A stretch of 64,000 nt of DNA, from contig NZ_JACIBY010000002.1 of NCBI RefSeq assembly GCF_014195535.1, positions 124,001-188,000 of the forward strand, read 5' to 3'. The notes below the pieces were generated by a model. It worked only from the letters and a program-made list of their open reading frames with translations, was not told the origin of the DNA and did no database searches. Numbering within the stretch: position 1 is the first letter of the stretch; each line of letters begins with the position of its first letter. Source of the DNA: Runella defluvii. GTDB taxonomy: Bacteria > Bacteroidota > Bacteroidia > Cytophagales > Spirosomataceae. Shown here one piece after another: positions 3,277 through 32,224 of this stretch. Made by a program: the position numbers and the translations under genes.

Positions 3277-5073
3277 TTAAATAGGCTTGCCTGCACTCTT
3301 GGTTTTCTTGACCACCAGCGGTATGCACAAATTCGGTGGACAACAATCAATTGCTTCGATGATGATAGGACAGCACCCTTCCGCAGGGCAGCTTCCTGCA
3401 TCGGCACTGATGCTGTATGCTCCTGCCTCCGATAAATTGATGGAATTTCCAGTACCCACTTGCGTCGTTCCCTTAAACCACCGAACGTTGGTGAAGAAGC
3501 TTGGCACGGTCACCGTAATTTCTTGATTTGAGCAAAGTTTGATTGGGACGCTCACACAAGCATGGGCTATATCGTCTTCGAGTAGTGAGTTATTGTTTGG
3601 CGTCGAATCGGGATCGTCTTGGTCTGAGGCCGTCACTTCCGCCCGGTTAAAATGTACGCCTTCTGCCAAAACTTGCGTATTGATTGTTAGCTCTACGCTG
3701 TCACCTGGCGCGATGCTTGCAATGCTCCACGTCACCACCTGGCCTGCTGGCGTGAGTGCTGGCGAAGAACTAAGCCACTTCAAAGCCACTGGAAGCGAGT
3801 CTGTTACCACAACGTTTGTCGCTGAGTCTGGCCCATCGTTTTTGACAGTTAGTTTAAATATGGCCGTACTACCTACAGTTGCTTGAGCAGCCGAAATACG
3901 TTTTTTGCTCAATGACAAATCCGCAACTTTTCCTGCACAACGCTGCGCAGGGCAAAGCGTTGCTTTCGTATATTCCACTCCTGTGGCCACATCCGTAAGT
4001 GTGTATTGATTGCCGCTAATGTTCACCTCGTTCATCCCTGTTTTAGGGAAATCGGTACTGGTTTGCCAGTTTAAATCAAAACAAGGGTTTGTCAACGCCC
4101 CTTTATAATCCATCGAAATACACGATACGGTCGTCCATGCTTGGGTCACTTGGCGCGCCGTTGGCGTTCCTGTGGGACTATACTTTACATTGAGCGACAC
4201 CACTCCGCTAGTCGCATTTTCGGTACTTCCTGTCAAATTCTGGGCCGTGTAGCGGTTGTCAGATGCGGGAGCAACAGATGAAAAAGCTTCTTGCGAAACA
4301 ATTTGTGGGTTTGTTAAAAGGGTTGCGCTGTAATTGAAGCGGTAATTGGCATCTCCCATCAAGAAAGCACTTTCGGCATCCGCAGCGCGTACTTCCACCC
4401 GCAACACGACCTTCTTGGTTTCACAATCAAAGCTTTTTACCGATAACCGTACGCCGTATTTGGCCTTACTTGCCTGACAAAACTGATCAGCACACACGGT
4501 TAGGTTTTCAAAAACTTTGGCCGAGGCCACATTTTTAGTTGTATAAGCAAAAGGGGTAGCAGAGGTTACAATTACCTCGTTCATACCCGTTCTTGGAAAA
4601 TCTGTATCTTTCTGCCACGCAAGTGTGTAGCAACCCGTTATGGCAAGGACATCAAACGACAAGCAACTCACCGTTGTCCAGTCGGTTGTTACTTGCCTTG
4701 CCCCTGCCCTGCCTGCAAAAATGGTGTTTAGAGAAACTATACCATTGGTAGCCCCCGCCGTACTTCCTTCTAAGTTCTGAGATTGGTAGGCGATTTGGCT
4801 GGCGGGTGCATTTCCTGAGAAATTTTCTTCGCTTACAATCGTGGGGTTGGCCAATTGTTGGGTACTATACCGAAAACGATAATTTGCATCTCCCATTAGG
4901 AATGTACTATCGGCGTTATTGGCCTTAACTTGGACTTGCACTACCATTTTTTTGGTAAGGCAATCAAACGATTTGAGGCTCAAACGCACGGCAAAAGAGC
5001 CTTTTTGGGCATAGGTCGCAACCGACACCAATAGCAAACCAACGGCTGCCAACAGTCGTACAAATTGTTTCAT
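3277..5073 (-). CDS. Secreted protein with duplicated beta domain and DUF11 repeat
   Basis: The product has 598 residues. I chose the ATG at 5073 because it begins a clear signal peptide (MKQFVRLLAAVGLLLVSVATYAQ); an in-frame extension upstream has no such character. Residues about 25-190 and 205-375 are two homologous copies (shared SFDC..TKK, FLMGDANYRF, TVSC, TDFP.TGMNEV). Residues about 395-505 are a DUF11-type domain (ADLSLSKK ... NDGPDSATNVVVTDSLP). A short Ig-like, Cys-rich tail follows, ending CCPPNLCIPLVVKK. DUF11 domains are typical of large extracellular proteins in Bacteroidota and act as structural modules. The tail does not look like a standard type IX secretion signal, so how the protein is retained at the surface is unclear. 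It is followed after 61 bp by the tandem-repeat protein. A structural surface role is inference. Confidence 0.82.
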   Translation of the reverse strand: MKQFVRLLAAVGLLLVSVATYAQKGSFAVRLSLKSFDCLTKKMVVQVQVKANNADSTFLMGDANYRFRYSTQQLANPTIVSEENFSGNAPASQIAYQSQNLEGSTAGATNGIVSLNTIFAGRAGARQVTTDWTTVSCLSFDVLAITGCYTLAWQKDTDFPRTGMNEVIVTSATPFAYTTKNVASAKVFENLTVCADQFCQASKAKYGVRLSVKSFDCETKKVVLRVEVRAADAESAFLMGDANYRFNYSATLLTNPQIVSQEAFSSVAPASDNRYTAQNLTGSTENATSGVVSLNVKYSPTGTPTARQVTQAWTTVSCISMDYKGALTNPCFDLNWQTSTDFPKTGMNEVNISGNQYTLTDVATGVEYTKATLCPAQRCAGKVADLSLSKKRISAAQATVGSTAIFKLTVKNDGPDSATNVVVTDSLPVALKWLSSSPALTPAGQVVTWSIASIAPGDSVELTINTQVLAEGVHFNRAEVTASDQDDPDSTPNNNSLLEDDIAHACVSVPIKLCSNQEITVTVPSFFTNVRWFKGTTQVGTGNSINLSEAGAYSISADAGSCPAEGCCPIIIEAIDCCPPNLCIPLVVKKTKSAGKPI

Positions 5074-10510: not shown

Positions 10511-10625
10511 TAACACTTTAAACAAACTGAGCTATCACTCCATTAGCCAACCCTATGTTAAGCAGCCCCCCCTAAACTTAATACAACCATAATCGGGGAT
10601 GTTTTTAGCCCACATAAAAGGGGGA

Positions 10626-10633
10626 TAGCTTTG
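10626..10633 (+). promoter_or_regulatory. Putative -7 element TAGCTTTG
   Basis: TAGCTTTG matches the Bacteroidota -7 consensus TAnnTTTG and lies 28 bp upstream of the ATG at 10662. The -33 region has only a T run (10602-10606) instead of a clear TTG, so the call is tentative. Confidence 0.35.
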
Positions 10634-10661: not shown

Positions 10662-11975
10662 ATGACTACACACTCATTTACTTCAGTCGTAGCTCTTAGT
10701 GGTGCGCTCACGTTGGGCTTACTGCTGGTTTCCTGCAACGATCACCGCTTACCCGTTGTCAATTACCCCGCTTTTGCCGAGGCTAGTTCACCCAAAATCC
10801 TTTCTACGGCAGCTAACGGAACGGTACTCTACAACGGTGGATTTGGTTCCGCGCTAGTTGCCGACCCAAGGGATGCTAACGTTTTCTATTTACTCACCGA
10901 CCGTGGCCCTAATGCCGCTGGAACGGCCGCTAATTCCATCATTTTTGGAAAATCGGACTTTACTCCACAAGTTGGCAAGTTTCGGTTAATTGGGAATCAG
11001 TTGGTGTTGGAAGAGACCATTTTATTGAAAAATGCCGCAGGTCAATTGCTCAACGGACTCCCTAACCCAACGGGTCAAGGAAGTACGGGAGAAACCGCCC
11101 TCGACCTCAATGGCAACCCCATCGCCCCCAGCGCAGATGGACTTGATTCAGAAGGGCTCGCCCTTGCGTCGGACGGTACATTTTGGGTAAGCGACGAATA
11201 CGGCCCTCACCTTGTACACTTTGACAGAATGGGCAAGACCCTCGAACGCATCAATCCCTTCGGTTCGGGAACGGGCGGACGCACACTACCCAAAGTTCTA
11301 GCGCGCCGTCGTCCTAATCGGGGAATGGAAGGGTTGACCATTACACCCGACGGAAAGACGTTGGTAGGTTTAATGCAGTCGCCTTTGTACAACCCTTCTT
11401 CGGCGGCAGTTTCGGGCTCGTTGGTGTTGCGCGTAATGACGTTTGACATTGCCACGGGTTCCACCAAACAGTATGTGTATTTGATGGAAAACGCCAGCCT
11501 AACGGGTTGCAGCGAAATCGTAGCCATCACCAACACAACTTTTCTTGCTTTGGAGCGCGACGGAGATTACGGTGGAAACCCCGCCAAGCCAGCCGCTTTC
11601 AAAAGAATCTACAAGTTTGATTTGGCAGGCGCTACCGATATTTCTGACGGTGCTAATGGCGACGGAGGCAAATTGTACAACGGCTTGACCGTAGAGCAGC
11701 TAAAAGACAAGGCAGGTTTGACTGCTGCGGGCATTGTCCCCGTGACTAAGTCGCTGGTCTTTGATTTATTAACGCAAATATCACCCGTTTACCCTCACGA
11801 TAAAGCCGAAGGTATTGCCATTCTTAGCAACACGCTCATCGCGGTTTCTAACGACGATGATTTTGGGGTGGTGGACAACGGACAAAATAGCTTTACCACA
11901 AAGATTCTGCCTGCTACAGGAAAAGTGGACATGAATCGCATCTATTTTATCAATTTATCAACGCCGTTGAAGTAA
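10662..11975 (+). CDS. Esterase-like/phytase-like lipoprotein
   Basis: The product has 437 residues. The N-terminus is a lipoprotein signal with Cys after LLLVS, so it is probably anchored in a membrane facing the periplasm or surface. The body matches the phytase-like (esterase-like activity of phytase) family, a six-bladed propeller: ADPRDANVFYLLTDRGPNA, then GLDSEGLALASDGTFWVSDEYGPHLVHFD, GMEGLTITPDGKTLVGLMQSP, and FLALERDGDYG. These acidic motifs line the calcium/substrate channel in the family. The real substrate of most members is unknown, and some act on phosphate esters. The gene stands alone, followed by a strong terminator. Confidence 0.85.
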   Translation: MTTHSFTSVVALSGALTLGLLLVSCNDHRLPVVNYPAFAEASSPKILSTAANGTVLYNGGFGSALVADPRDANVFYLLTDRGPNAAGTAANSIIFGKSDFTPQVGKFRLIGNQLVLEETILLKNAAGQLLNGLPNPTGQGSTGETALDLNGNPIAPSADGLDSEGLALASDGTFWVSDEYGPHLVHFDRMGKTLERINPFGSGTGGRTLPKVLARRRPNRGMEGLTITPDGKTLVGLMQSPLYNPSSAAVSGSLVLRVMTFDIATGSTKQYVYLMENASLTGCSEIVAITNTTFLALERDGDYGGNPAKPAAFKRIYKFDLAGATDISDGANGDGGKLYNGLTVEQLKDKAGLTAAGIVPVTKSLVFDLLTQISPVYPHDKAEGIAILSNTLIAVSNDDDFGVVDNGQNSFTTKILPATGKVDMNRIYFINLSTPLK

Positions 11976-11989
11976 GCATAATTCAGCAT

Positions 11990-12030
11990 AAAAAAAGGAG
12001 GCGCTTCGTTAGAAATGCCTCCTTTTTTTA
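11990..12030. terminator. Bidirectional rho-independent terminator
   Basis: An A-run plus ggaggc (11990-12002) pairs with gcctcc plus a T-run (12017-12029) around a 14-nt loop. Flanking A and T runs make it active on both strands. It ends the phytase-like gene. It also sits just past the leftover 3' end of the exonuclease gene at 12041, so it was probably that gene's original terminator before the restriction-modification insert arrived. Confidence 0.85.
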
Positions 12031-12040
12031 TTTAAAGTCA

Positions 12041-12076
12041 TTACTCCGCCCGCACAATATTCTCGGGCTTCACGGT
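12041..12076 (-). pseudogene. Duplicated 3' end of exonuclease gene (left direct repeat)
   Basis: Read on the minus strand these 36 bp encode TVKPENIVRAE and a stop (TAA), the same C-terminus as the intact exonuclease ending at 14030 (stop TGA). The stretch 12043-12076 matches 14032-14065 at 33 of 34 positions, the only difference being g/a within ctc(g/a)ggc. The repeats are in direct orientation, 1989 bp apart, and bracket exactly the restriction endonuclease and methyltransferase genes. This is a footprint of integration into the 3' end of a protein gene. Confidence 0.88.
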
Positions 12077-12094
12077 AAAGCTTTTATCTTATTC

Positions 12095-13021
12095 TTAAAC
12101 CCAAATAAATTCTAATTGTTGTTCTTTTGGTTTCTTTTTCACTCCATGATTATGCTGGTCGATTTGGTCGGTATCAAAATTACAAACTAACGCTTCAACA
12201 ACAGTTCGTCTATTTTCAACACTACCACCATTATGGTAGAAATGGTCTTTAGTAACAATATTAAACTTATTCCAATATTTGTTAATCATTTCGTTTTCTC
12301 GCCAATCATTATGATGCCAAGTAGAGAGAATAAACTTTGCTTTAGTTTCTGACAGCAAGTTAAATAAAAGCTCTTCGTCCTGCTCTTTCCAACCATTGTA
12401 ATAGTCAACATGTCTTCCATAATAGGGTGGATCACAATAAATAATATCGTTTTCATTAGCTAATGGAATTATTTCAGCAAAAGACTTATTATAAAATAAC
12501 CAATTAGGTTCGGGTTGGATAATTTGAGAAACAGTTGCAACCTGATTAGTGATTTTAGTAATATAGGCTTGTGCGAAACGGTCAGGCTTTTTACAAAATG
12601 GAATATTCCAATTACCCTTACTACCAAAACGCATCATTCCATTAAAACCTGCCCTTGATAAAAAAATAAAGTCATAAGGCGAAAACTCTCCCCCATTAAA
12701 ACGAGATCGAACTTTTAAATAGTGCTCATAGCCGTTATTATCGGCCAAGCTCAACAACCTTCCCTCTTCTTCTAAATATTTTTTCATTAAAGGAGCAGAA
12801 ATGCTTTTTTCTTGAACTCCTTTATAAAATCCTATTATGTGAGGATTCGTATCGTTTAAAATTGCGTTTTTATAACCAGCATTAAATGCTACGACTCCAG
12901 TACCTAAGAACGGTTCTATCCATTTCCCCTTTTGATTGGCGATTGTTGCTAAATCCTTAATCCAAGGAACCAATTTAGTCTTAATACCCTGGCTTTTTAT
13001 AGGTGGAATAATTACTTTCAT
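12095..13021 (-). CDS. Adenine-specific DNA methyltransferase, M.EcoRV-like
   Basis: The product has 308 residues from the ATG at 13021 (MKVIIPPIKSQGIKTKLVPW), which leaves 4 bp after the endonuclease stop; an ATG at 13051 would overlap it. It is a Dam/D12-class N6-adenine methyltransferase. Motif I is IEPFLGTGVVAFN (from residue 35), binding S-adenosylmethionine, and motif IV is CDPPYYGRHVDYYNGW with Asp197-Pro-Pro-Tyr200 in the active site. FCKKPDRFAQAYITKI and STWHHNDWREN closely resemble what I recall of M.EcoRV, so methylation of GATATC is predicted to protect the host from the adjacent nuclease. It is AT-rich relative to its neighbours, fitting recent acquisition. Confidence 0.92.
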   Translation of the reverse strand: MKVIIPPIKSQGIKTKLVPWIKDLATIANQKGKWIEPFLGTGVVAFNAGYKNAILNDTNPHIIGFYKGVQEKSISAPLMKKYLEEEGRLLSLADNNGYEHYLKVRSRFNGGEFSPYDFIFLSRAGFNGMMRFGSKGNWNIPFCKKPDRFAQAYITKITNQVATVSQIIQPEPNWLFYNKSFAEIIPLANENDIIYCDPPYYGRHVDYYNGWKEQDEELLFNLLSETKAKFILSTWHHNDWRENEMINKYWNKFNIVTKDHFYHNGGSVENRRTVVEALVCNFDTDQIDQHNHGVKKKPKEQQLEFIWV

Positions 13022-13025
13022 AAGC

Positions 13026-13937
13026 TTACTCTTTTGAATGTCTTGTAACAATTTTATCCCACAAATCCGTCCTACCTTTAAATTCTAGAAAATCTTTGAG
13101 GTTAGTAATTTTAATGGTTTTACCATTTTTCACCATCGTTGCAAAACCAAAATTTATCCAATACTCGTCAAACCACTCTTCTCCAAGTTGGCTAAAGACC
13201 CCATTTTCGTTTCTTAAATCTTCAATGCTTAATGTAGAACCAATATTTGCTGTATTGCCAGAGCCTTGTTTGTCACTTGCTATTTTCCACTTTTCTGCCG
13301 CGAAAAAATCAAAATCTTTGATTACAGATGTTATGGATTTTAAATCTTTAACCGTTGTAACCTCTCTTTCACCAATCTTCTTATTTGGTATTTCGTACTC
13401 TTCTTGCATTTCCTGAACCTGATAAATTTCTGTATCAGAAATAGCGTCACCATCTATATCAGTCCTTGTATAGATAACACCCAAACAGTAATGGCCTAAA
13501 TATTGATTATATGGAAATTGAATATTCTTTTTCTTATCTCTTTCCTTAAAATAACTTCCATGACTACCTAGTGTAAAACTTGAAATTCCACTTTTCTTAC
13601 GATAAGTTGTTTTCAAATCTACCGCAAACTTCACATCTTCATTGTGTTTATTTATAAAAGTAAGGTCAGGATAATAATTTTGGTGTTCAGTTAGCAATAT
13701 TTTATACCCAATTTCGTCAGCAAACTGAAGAATTTGAGGAAAAATGTGTATTTCAAGAATTTTTGAAACAATTTTAGTATCAGACGAAATCGTATAAATG
13801 TTCTTATAAACGTCAATGAAACCTTTTATCGACCAATCACCATTATCAGTTGAAACATAACTTTCTAATTTTTGGGTAAATCTATCGAGTTCTTTTTTGA
13901 AATTGCCCTTATACTTTATCTTATCTGCAGCTGTCAT
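13026..13937 (-). CDS. Type II restriction endonuclease, EcoRV-like
   Basis: The product has 303 residues, longer than EcoRV (about 245) mainly through an insert around residues 160-205. The EcoRV catalytic set is present with identical spacing: Glu62 (KILEIHIFP), Asp91 (QNYYPDLTF), Asp107 and Lys109 (FAVDLKTTY) correspond to Glu45, Asp74, Asp90 and Lys92. The recognition loop GSGNTAN (225-231) matches EcoRV's GSGNTTN with one Thr-to-Ala change, and the Q-loop QN (86-87) is kept. It should cut GATATC as a dimer; exact specificity is inference. It is transcribed ahead of the methyltransferase, an order that raises the question of how the host is protected during transfer. Family similarity was judged from memory of EcoRV. 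Confidence 0.9.
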   Translation of the reverse strand: MTAADKIKYKGNFKKELDRFTQKLESYVSTDNGDWSIKGFIDVYKNIYTISSDTKIVSKILEIHIFPQILQFADEIGYKILLTEHQNYYPDLTFINKHNEDVKFAVDLKTTYRKKSGISSFTLGSHGSYFKERDKKKNIQFPYNQYLGHYCLGVIYTRTDIDGDAISDTEIYQVQEMQEEYEIPNKKIGEREVTTVKDLKSITSVIKDFDFFAAEKWKIASDKQGSGNTANIGSTLSIEDLRNENGVFSQLGEEWFDEYWINFGFATMVKNGKTIKITNLKDFLEFKGRTDLWDKIVTRHSKE

Positions 13938-14029
13938 TGTATCAAAGTTAGTAAAATTTTACTCTATGTTTCTGCCTGCTAAGGTTAATAAGAATGGTGG
14001 AAGCATTCCTCATACACCTAAACAGCCCC

Positions 14030-14758
14030 TCACTCCGCCCGCACAATATTCTCAGGCTTCACGGTCTCAAATTGGTTGAGACGCAGCCACAGTTGAGCGA
14101 GTACGACCACGTCTTCTTTGCAGTAGCGCCGAATGCGGTCGAGGTCTTTTTCAGCATAATACACCCGCGTCACGTCTTCGCCGCTGATGTCTGACTTACT
14201 GCTCGGAATTCCAAACAGCGCTGCCAACAAGTCCAACTGCGCAAAGCTTTTGTAGTCGCCATAACGCCACATGTCGAGCGTATCTTGGTGAAGGATTTCC
14301 CACGGCTTTTTGCCCGAAAGTTGGAGTGATTCGGGAAGTGTAATGCCGTTGACTAGCATCCGTCGGCAGATGTAGGGGAAGTCAAATTCCTTACCGTTAT
14401 GAGCACAAAGAATAAGCTGGTTTTGAGGGTATTTTTCGAGCAACTCTTTAAACTCCAACAACAACGCCCGCTCGTCGTCGCCCGCGAGGGATTTTACTTT
14501 AAAGCGCGGCTGTTCATCGGTGGTATTCCAATAAAGCGCCCCAACTCCGATGCAAATGATTTTTCCAAACTCCGCATAAATTGCCGCCCGACGGTAAAAC
14601 AAGTCGAACGGAGCCACGTGGTCGTCGTTGCGAATATTGGCGGCTTTACGTTCCCACTGCTCCTGCATTCGTTCGTCAAGCTGGTCAAATGAAGCTTTCG
14701 ACGAAACCGTTTCGATGTCGATAAAAAGTACGTTTTTAGCTTTTTTGCGAAGGTCCAT
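14030..14758 (-). CDS. DEDDy-type 3'-5' exonuclease, PolB exonuclease-like
   Basis: The product has 242 residues and belongs to the predicted 3'-5' exonucleases related to the DNA polymerase B proofreading domain (DNA_pol_B_exo2). The DEDDy residues are visible: Asp and Glu in LFIDIETV, Asp in HNGKEFDFPY, and Tyr plus Asp in RRYCKEDVVVL. The reaction is removal of nucleotides from DNA or RNA 3' ends with two metal ions. It is the last gene of a probable ruvX-def-exonuclease operon. Its last 12 codons form the right copy of the 34-bp direct repeat that flanks the restriction-modification insert, so the insert has replaced the original 3' flank without changing the protein end. Confidence 0.87.
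   Translation of the reverse strand: MDLRKKAKNVLFIDIETVSSKASFDQLDERMQEQWERKAANIRNDDHVAPFDLFYRRAAIYAEFGKIICIGVGALYWNTTDEQPRFKVKSLAGDDERALLLEFKELLEKYPQNQLILCAHNGKEFDFPYICRRMLVNGITLPESLQLSGKKPWEILHQDTLDMWRYGDYKSFAQLDLLAALFGIPSSKSDISGEDVTRVYYAEKDLDRIRRYCKEDVVVLAQLWLRLNQFETVKPENIVRAE
14032..14065. repeat. Right copy of 34-bp direct repeat flanking the R-M insert
   Basis: It begins actccgcccgcacaatattc and matches 12043-12076 at 33 of 34 positions in the same orientation. It is contained in the 3' end of the exonuclease gene. Similarity stops sharply on both sides. It behaves like an attachment-site or target duplication; no integrase gene lies between the copies. Confidence 0.88.
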
Positions 14759-14820
14759 GGCGATGCAGTTTAAGGAACGAATAGTAAGAAAAAATCAGAA
14801 GTCACTTGCTTGTGCGCTAC

Positions 14821-14876
14821 GGTCAGGTTGTGAGCAACCTGACCCACCCGTGTGGAGGGTTGCTCATAACCCGACC
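14821..14876. repeat. Two copies of a short GGTTGCTCACAACC hairpin element
   Basis: The sequence ggtcaggttgtgagcaacctgacc (14821-14844) is split here as arms ggtcaggttg and caacctgacc around tgag, a perfect stem of 10 bp. A second, opposite-facing version, gggttgctcataacccgacc, is at 14857-14876. The same word recurs at 19038-19056 and 19540-19558. It lies between the def and exonuclease genes and is probably a REP-like dispersed element. Confidence 0.7.
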
Positions 14877-19000: not shown

Positions 19001-19056
19001 GTGTCGAGGGGTGAATGAAGAATGTCGAACGTGCTGAGGGTTGCTCACAACCCGAG
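19000..19056 (+). repeat. Left copy of a 58-bp repeat flanking the higA remnant operon
   Basis: It begins gagtgtcgagg and ends gggttgctcacaacccgag. It aligns with 19501-19558 at about three quarters of positions in the same orientation, and the ends are best conserved. It abuts the point where HigB coding similarity begins, and the right copy starts just after the higA stop. The hairpin word inside it is shared with 14821-14876. Confidence 0.65.
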
Positions 19057-19500: not shown

Positions 19501-19558
19501 GAGTGTCGAGTGCAGAGTAGAGAATGTCAAATGTGCAGAGGGGTGCTCACAACCTGAA
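19501..19558 (+). repeat. Right copy of the 58-bp repeat
   Basis: It begins gagtgtcgagtg right after the higA stop and ends gctcacaacctgaa. It is the partner of 19000-19056, with the same order of words (gagtgtcgag, agaatgtc, gctcacaacc). Confidence 0.65.
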
Positions 19559-23938: not shown

Positions 23939-23978
23939 AGAGTAGGCAGTTTTCAGGAACTGCCTACTCTCCCTTTTT
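23939..23978 (+). terminator. Rho-independent terminator after the amidase gene
   Basis: The arms agagtaggcagtt (23939-23951) and aactgcctactct (23958-23970) form a perfect 13-bp stem followed by ccctttttct. Part of the right arm and the T run belong to a duplicated gene tail (see 23964-24030). Confidence 0.85.
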
Positions 23979-24030
23979 CTCAAAACTCACGCCTTCCTAG
24001 ATTTCGGCATCTACTGCGCCTTTTGCTCCT
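23964..24030 (-). pseudogene. Fused remnant of beta-lactamase-like and Uma2 gene tails
   Basis: On the minus strand the fragment reads VDAEI, a stop, then EGVSFEKKGE and a stop. The EGVSFEKKGE half is identical to the C-terminus of the Uma2 gene ending at 31658 (23965-23997 matches 31659-31691 at 32 of 33 bases). The VDAEI half matches the C-terminus of the serine hydrolase ending at 32285 (about 80% identity over 40 bp with 32294-32333). The two halves meet at a shared ccttc/gaagg. It looks like a second, internally deleted copy of the 31.66-32.33 kb locus lying on the other side of the 24.1-31.6 kb gene pair. Confidence 0.7.
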
Positions 24031-31657: not shown

Positions 31658-32224
31658 TTACTCTCCCTTTTTCTCAAAACTCACTCCTTCAAAAATATCT
31701 TGTAGGGAGAGTTGGGTATCAAAAAACGGGAGAGAAACGTTTTCGTTTATATCCGTGTAAAAGTCAAATTGCCAACTTTTACCACTGCGGGTATAAATCT
31801 CCACGATAGGTTCGTCTTGATGAATTGTGAGATAGTATTGTAAAGACGATAACCCAAAATACTCCAAGCGTTTTTTATCTCTGTCGATGTCTTCGGTACT
31901 TTCAGAAAGTACTTCTACAATTAATACAGGATCCGTTACGTACTTTTTATGGTCGCCTTTTTGGTGAATTACTACCAAGTCAGGGTAACGGTAGCTCTTT
32001 TTATGAACCATTAGTTTGATGTCATGGTCAAATACCATAAAAGGTGTTTTTTTAAACAAAATACGCAACAATACATAAATATTGCCTGCTATTAGATTGG
32101 CGATGGTTGTTTCTCCTGGCATCTCAATGATTTCTCCGTAATAAAATTCGTGGCGGATTTCGGATTTTTCTTCCAAAGCAAAGTACTCCTCCACGCTAAA
32201 CTTTTTTTCGGCTACCGTTTCCAT
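31658..32224 (-). CDS. Uma2-family putative endonuclease (DUF820)
   Basis: The product has 188 residues, the usual length. Uma2 proteins share the PD-(D/E)XK nuclease fold; the motif here is RYPDLVVIHQ followed by PVLIVEVLSEST, which supplies the acidic residues. The family is highly expanded in Cyanobacteria and some Bacteroidota, and its natural function is not established. The last ten codons are duplicated in the remnant at 23964-24030. It lies convergent to the big hydrolase-like gene with only 13 bp between the stops. Confidence 0.88.
   Translation of the reverse strand: METVAEKKFSVEEYFALEEKSEIRHEFYYGEIIEMPGETTIANLIAGNIYVLLRILFKKTPFMVFDHDIKLMVHKKSYRYPDLVVIHQKGDHKKYVTDPVLIVEVLSESTEDIDRDKKRLEYFGLSSLQYYLTIHQDEPIVEIYTRSGKSWQFDFYTDINENVSLPFFDTQLSLQDIFEGVSFEKKGE

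Follow-up and report, generated by a model that had tools for sequence, protein, structure and literature searches.

A predicted EcoRV-type restriction-modification pair inserted behind an exonuclease gene with a 34-bp target duplication in Runella defluvii

Insertion with long target duplication was reportedly described for restriction-modification (R-M) systems by Nobusato and colleagues in 2000 and by Furuta and colleagues in 2010. Since 2000, when long target duplications came to light, it has been asked how R-M systems enter genomes with neither a transposase nor an integrase. According to passages of later reports, the insertion of some R-M systems is accompanied by long, variable target duplications on the order of 100 bp (PMC3874152), R-M systems of every type are capable of inserting with target duplications that are long and variable (PMC3031569), and such insertions were first described between strains of Helicobacter pylori (PMC1643837). 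Our literature search turned up no report of EcoRV-type pairs having entered a genome in this manner, and none at all for Runella. Here, we describe such a pair in a 64,000-nt stretch of the R. defluvii genome (contig NZ_JACIBY010000002.1, positions 124,001–188,000), referred to as the window; all coordinates below are those of the window unless another locus is named.

The target gene (14030–14758, minus strand) is intact and encodes a predicted 3'-5' exonuclease of 242 aa (PolB-exonuclease-like; PF10108, E = 1.4e-19). Two direct repeats of 34 nt, identical at 33 of 34 positions and with a spacing of 1989, are located on the minus strand at 12043–12076 and 14032–14065. The repeated sequence corresponds to the final 11 codons of the exonuclease gene plus one base, and the sole mismatch between the copies is synonymous (CCC/CCT). 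The right copy serves as the working 3' end of the gene, with TGA as the stop codon. The left copy is the displaced original gene end; it encodes the same residues (TVKPENIVRAE), followed by the stop codon TAA and then by a strong terminator hairpin at 11988–12031. A 71-nt stretch folds here at -26.2 kcal/mol (z = -6.0; equalled by none of 200 shuffles), and a hairpin occupies the same place in the genome of a sister species (G005). This exonuclease terminator now lies 3' of the R-M pair.

The two copies enclose 1955 bp of inserted AT-rich DNA (12077–14031, minus strand), which is missing from the G005 site according to BLAST. The G+C content of the block is 0.29–0.36 in 500-bp windows, as compared with 0.37–0.58, mostly 0.43–0.54, in those lying wholly outside it. 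Among the long ORFs of the insert, matches to known families were obtained for the two R-M genes only; both are co-oriented with the exonuclease gene and sit between this gene and its old terminator. The other ORFs of at least 60 aa overlap the R-M genes or the edge of the insert. The ORF list and family searches of the two long minus-strand ORFs revealed no recombinase, integrase or transposase gene in the insert.

The first gene of the pair (13026–13937, minus strand) encodes an EcoRV-family restriction endonuclease of 303 aa (PF09233, E = 2.1e-102), residues 30–181 and 195–288 of which align to the EcoRV chain 1az0_A (E = 1.6e-32). The alignment includes both PD...DxK, which we take to be the catalytic motif, and GSGNTxNIGS, presumably the recognition-loop stretch of EcoRV. 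With both elements in place, the endonuclease is probably active. The second gene (12095–13021, minus strand) encodes a D12-class N6-adenine methyltransferase of 308 aa (PF02086, E = 6.5e-41; PADLOC MTase_II, E = 2.4e-115), which also matches DNA adenine methylases in the PDB. Based on comparison with the homologue at the related locus L078, its start is likely the ATG at 13021 rather than the TTG at 13051 with which the listed ORF begins. Judged by these matches, the two genes constitute a complete EcoRV-type type II R-M system. Just before the endonuclease start we identified TAACTTTG (13943–13950, minus strand), a putative Bacteroidota-type -7 promoter box of the form TAnnTTTG, which we take to be the Bacteroidota consensus. 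This motif is found no more than 45 bp upstream of the start in 54 of 88 related pairs, as against 38 of 1116 control segments; owing to this enrichment, the R-M pair probably brings its own promoter.

The exonuclease gene is present in 11 of the 12 congeners that we compared, and the protein of the sister species G005 is 99.6% identical. In G005, the gene has a single 3' end, immediately beyond which lie a terminator and what is left of the neighbouring phytase-like gene. Both flanks of the insert (11725–12076 at 87% and 14029–14777 at 94% identity by BLAST) align to one contiguous G005 stretch, on which they overlap by 37 bp, and the alignment is collinear through the junction. G005 thus has the empty site, with one repeat copy running into the terminator. 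The endonuclease is absent from this site in all 12 congeners, so the R-M pair was most likely inserted. Endonuclease matches among these genomes were confined to G011 and G009. The G011 protein is 89% identical and is encoded on contig C12, with the exonuclease gene on C1; the first 200 bp of its gene are common to the locus L019 of Runella sp. MFBS21. The G009 match (47%) is in pieces and lies on a different contig from the exonuclease gene. No second copy of the exonuclease 3' end was found in the 11 congeners that carry the gene (0.9–9 kb downstream examined); the best repeat scores downstream of the gene were 8–12 in these genomes versus 31 in the window.

DNA similarity to related R-M loci ends between the repeats, the outermost positions being 13992 and 12082 among the matches listed, and none of the listed BLAST matches extends into the exonuclease gene. 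The position of these ends is as expected if the repeats represent target sequence lying outside the element. Sequence comparison demonstrates that the DNA was inserted, where its boundaries lie and that an empty site exists, and we regard insertion with target duplication as near certain. The preliminary description of this locus had proposed an EcoRV-like pair in an AT-rich block, bracketed by 34-bp direct repeats made of the last codons of the exonuclease gene, with the left copy running into a terminator, the host gene end restored, and neither integrase nor transposase inside. The matches, base composition, hairpin and intact exonuclease gene described above bear this out. It had also likened the case to insertion with long target duplication and suggested looking for a site with one copy joined to the terminator; such a site was found in G005, and the variable repeats of related pairs, described below, agree with the likeness.

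The phytase-like gene adjoining the insertion (10662–11975) matches G005 in its last 83 codons only. It was not found in the stretches from G002 and G007, in which the exonuclease gene directly precedes an amidohydrolase gene. The window contains further repeats. A 41-bp direct repeat (23965–24005 and 31659–31699, 88% identical) consists of the 3' end of a gene that we take to encode a Uma2-type nuclease (31658–32224), which recurs alone behind a presumably nitrilase-like gene; the solitary copy may be what remains of a lost paralogue, or else a further duplication of a gene end. An interspersed 26-bp repeat around GGGTTGCTCA occurs at 14849–14874, 19030–19055 and 19532–19557, and the first of these copies overlaps an inverted repeat of 20 nt that lies between the genes for the deformylase and the exonuclease. 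At its left edge (1–2888), the window carries tandemly repeated units of about 516 bp, which agree with one another at 76–96% in parts.

The sample of related pairs started from 115 candidates including the window, taken from the best 80 of 201 loci in one scan and from two genome searches (395 and 200 genomes). We dropped 27 of these as truncated, duplicate or without one of the genes and kept 88 usable distinct pairs, some of which are degraded or have flanks shorter than 800 bp. A direct repeat was considered tight at a score of at least 17 within a flank of 200 bp on both sides, thresholds that were chosen after the scores were known. Tight repeats bracket four of the 88 pairs, namely the window, L078, L106 and L038, and the remaining 84, including the close relative L019 from the same genus, have no tight flanking repeat. 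Leaving aside the window, which was picked for its repeat, 3 of 87 pairs compare with 0 of 3257 shifted brackets, placed in 100-bp steps along loci with room, at the same score and flank. At a stricter score of 24, two of the 87 relatives are retained. Taking the brackets as independent, although they overlap, we computed by hand chance probabilities of about 2e-5 for the three relatives and about 7e-4 for the two at score 24. When upstream flanks were paired with the downstream flanks of other pairs across the 88 loci, scores of at least 24 were reached in 1 and scores of at least 17 in 8 of 7656 combinations. These flank comparisons and the shifted brackets confirm that the repeat pair is real and rule out a chance origin. 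With a flank of 800 bp and a score of 17, the counts are 8 of 88 for the real brackets and 21 of 1984 for the shifted ones, the latter derived from four loci. The wider repeats in L098, L041, L044 and L017 were not counted because on one side or both their distance to the gene end exceeds 200 bp, and the repeat scores of L067, L074 and L087 were discarded as artefacts of truncated contigs.

The four tight repeats measure 17, 34, 34 and 69 bp. The L078 repeat (69 bp, 68/69 identical) comprises the 3' end, with the stop codon, of an ABC-F-like gene, and the L106 repeat (34/34) comprises the C-terminal codons of an ORF; both targets are co-oriented with their R-M pair. The L038 repeat is identical at all 17 positions. 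No common core is evident by eye among the four repeats, which differ in sequence as well as length, and the element ends also vary, lying 69–101 bp before the endonuclease and 22–99 bp after the methyltransferase. The lack of an evident core and the variable repeat lengths and element ends count against the work of a site-specific integrase and against a transposon with fixed ends, and the variation fits insertion with long target duplication. The idea, raised in the preliminary description, of a defined minimal self-moving unit of about 2 kb found no support, since the repeats of the relatives differ and show neither a recurring core nor a fixed element end. Two candidates were rejected on similar grounds: an integrative element with a site-specific integrase, for which neither an integrase in the insert nor a recurring core site at the ends was found, and a transposon with terminal inverted repeats, which are absent from the window, the duplication lengths being variable rather than short and fixed.

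An empty site was demonstrated for the window insertion only. For L078, none was demonstrable among 10 genomes and 61 relatives, and eight ABC-F loci (L150, L141–L144 and L161–L163) are without the L078 downstream gene. The L106 locus, located in G020, is identical in the tested stretch to the Rhodothermus marinus DSM 4252 plasmid NC_013502.1. It had no match outside G020 in seven genomes of its family, and a search of plasmid records yielded, besides the R. marinus plasmid, no more than a distantly similar Thermus methyltransferase fragment. At L121 (8011–8547 and about 10540–10630), the EcoRV-type pair of the R. marinus plasmid seems, from motifs read by eye, to lie within an interrupted site-specific-methyltransferase-like gene, so that one R-M system would be nested in what is left of a second. 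At L024, recorded as Cellulophaga sp. BC115SP, 200 bp at the endonuclease start match exactly L127, from a genome (G456) of the window's own family; the name on the L024 record may be wrong.

A site-specific recombinase would be marked by one core, and a transposase by a fixed short duplication with fixed ends; neither was seen, which leaves recombinase-free capture of a fragment. As the best explanation, we propose that this lineage acquired a complete type II R-M pair, which probably brought a promoter along, by insertion behind the exonuclease gene, and that the last 34 bp of this gene were duplicated in the event. Because these 34 bp were copied, the exonuclease keeps its full reading frame. 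No dedicated recombinase would have been used; a foreign DNA fragment would instead have been captured during repair or replication. This would most likely have occurred by template switching, in which the copying strand leaves the target, copies the fragment and resumes 34 bp further back, the near alternative being that the fragment was joined into a break with a long stagger. We consider this explanation as a whole to be probable. Gene-breaking insertions would tend to be lost, so targets at gene ends may reflect selection rather than site choice. Since a cell that loses the pair would suffer restriction of its own DNA, insertions of this kind would be retained, in line with passages of one report on R-M insertions (PMC3031569).

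The junctions bear on the choice between the two repair-type mechanisms. In L078, positions 3463–3479 (17 bp) are an exact copy of positions 480–496 of the target gene, a match reached by 0 of 300 shuffles. The patch is one base from the downstream repeat and, in the target gene, about 1.07 kb before the resumption point. Such a patch is expected if the copying strand switched templates within the gene, and it is a hint of template switching; it could also be the remnant of a longer duplication whose middle was later lost. No templated patch beyond chance was detected at the other seven of eight junctions tested at four loci, including the two of the window, where the best match was reached by 14% and 49% of shuffles. 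With seven plain junctions and one patch, we hold template switching only as the likelier mechanism. Its counterpart, in which a double-strand break takes up a linear fragment and its long staggered ends are filled in afterwards, is a possible but somewhat doubtful reading. It accounts for variable target duplications without a recombinase and for the seven plain junctions, but taken alone it leaves the 17-bp target patch of L078 unexplained. Extending the template-switching reading, we tentatively suggest that long target duplications at R-M insertions could be scars of switching between replication templates, in which the copying strand sometimes pauses briefly at another place in the target gene, as at the L078 junction, before it resumes upstream. 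If so, R-M pairs would need no recombinase to enter chromosomes, and they would be retained at sites where the duplicated end preserves the upstream gene.

Integration in trans by a site-specific recombinase encoded elsewhere in the cell might have brought in a circular R-M element, with 34 bp at the 3' end of the gene as the attachment site, in the manner of islands at tRNA genes. The gene-end target, the restored frame and the near-identical repeats do resemble attL and attR. We nevertheless judge this quite unlikely: the 8.0-Mb genome holds no further copy of the 34-mer beyond these two, with up to three mismatches allowed; the repeats of related pairs differ from one another in sequence and length; the 11 congeners with the gene have no second 3'-end copy in the 0.9–9 kb downstream; and among the matches listed, those to related R-M loci all stop short of the exonuclease gene. 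The preliminary description had compared the insert with integrating elements at tRNA genes and raised the possibility of the same 34-mer flanking other cargo. In this genome it flanks nothing else, and this result, together with the single 3' ends of the congeners, speaks against the comparison.

We also considered a gene cassette placed at a secondary site by an integron integrase, with the repeats being incidental. About 11 of the 88 related pairs have what we take to be cassette-like ends, for example GTTATGCCCAATGCT upstream and AGCACTGGGCATAAC downstream, recognised by eye (L017, L018, L025, L032, L037, L039, L046, L047, L050, L085 and L134), so EcoRV-type pairs may also travel as gene cassettes in Bacteroidota. 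Moreover, a cassette-like start directly follows the upstream 17-bp repeat of L038. The arm scores of the relatives (9–14) are within a cross-pair control with a 99% point of 12 and a maximum of 16, a control that itself mixes cassette-like loci. The window itself is without cassette-like arms, the best complementary arms within 150 bp on each side being 7 nt long, and the resemblance of its leader to cassette starts does not exceed what is expected by chance (167 of 2000 shuffles did as well), for which reason an integron origin was dropped as the main reading. To our knowledge, an integron integrase makes no 34-bp target duplication, which also counts against this explanation, and for the window it is very unlikely. 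Finally, an R-M pair ancestral in the genus and lost elsewhere by recombination between old repeats is hardly credible: precise deletion through 34-bp repeats is possible, but with the endonuclease at this site in 0 of 12 congeners and close relatives of the pair in distant genera, many losses would be needed.

Recombinase-free capture with target duplication can be set against the known systems that the locus resembles. Tyrosine-recombinase islands at gene ends share with it the duplicated gene 3' end and the preserved frame, whereas this insert is without an integrase and a recurring core site was not seen. Integron cassettes with R-M genes are resembled by several relatives of the pair in their cassette-like ends; the window has none that we detected and carries long direct repeats instead. 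The EcoRV system shares the aligned endonuclease motifs (PD...DxK and GSGNTxNIGS), here partnered with a D12-class adenine methyltransferase, although the endonuclease is longer (303 aa versus about 245 aa in EcoRV). With one enzyme family in many genomes, a clean empty site, a shifted-bracket count and one patched junction, the mechanism becomes testable by comparison of junctions. The case belongs to the known insertion-with-long-target-duplication kind, an assignment well supported by comparison: a whole R-M complex, long and variable target repeats, and insertion relative to a sister genome are shared. The duplication is 34 bp here, as compared with the roughly 100 bp given in passages on such R-M insertions (PMC3874152). 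In comparison with the H. pylori strain case, as far as passages of that report describe it (PMC1643837), the present insertions involve EcoRV-type pairs, mostly from Bacteroidota, and the window is matched by an empty site in a sister species.
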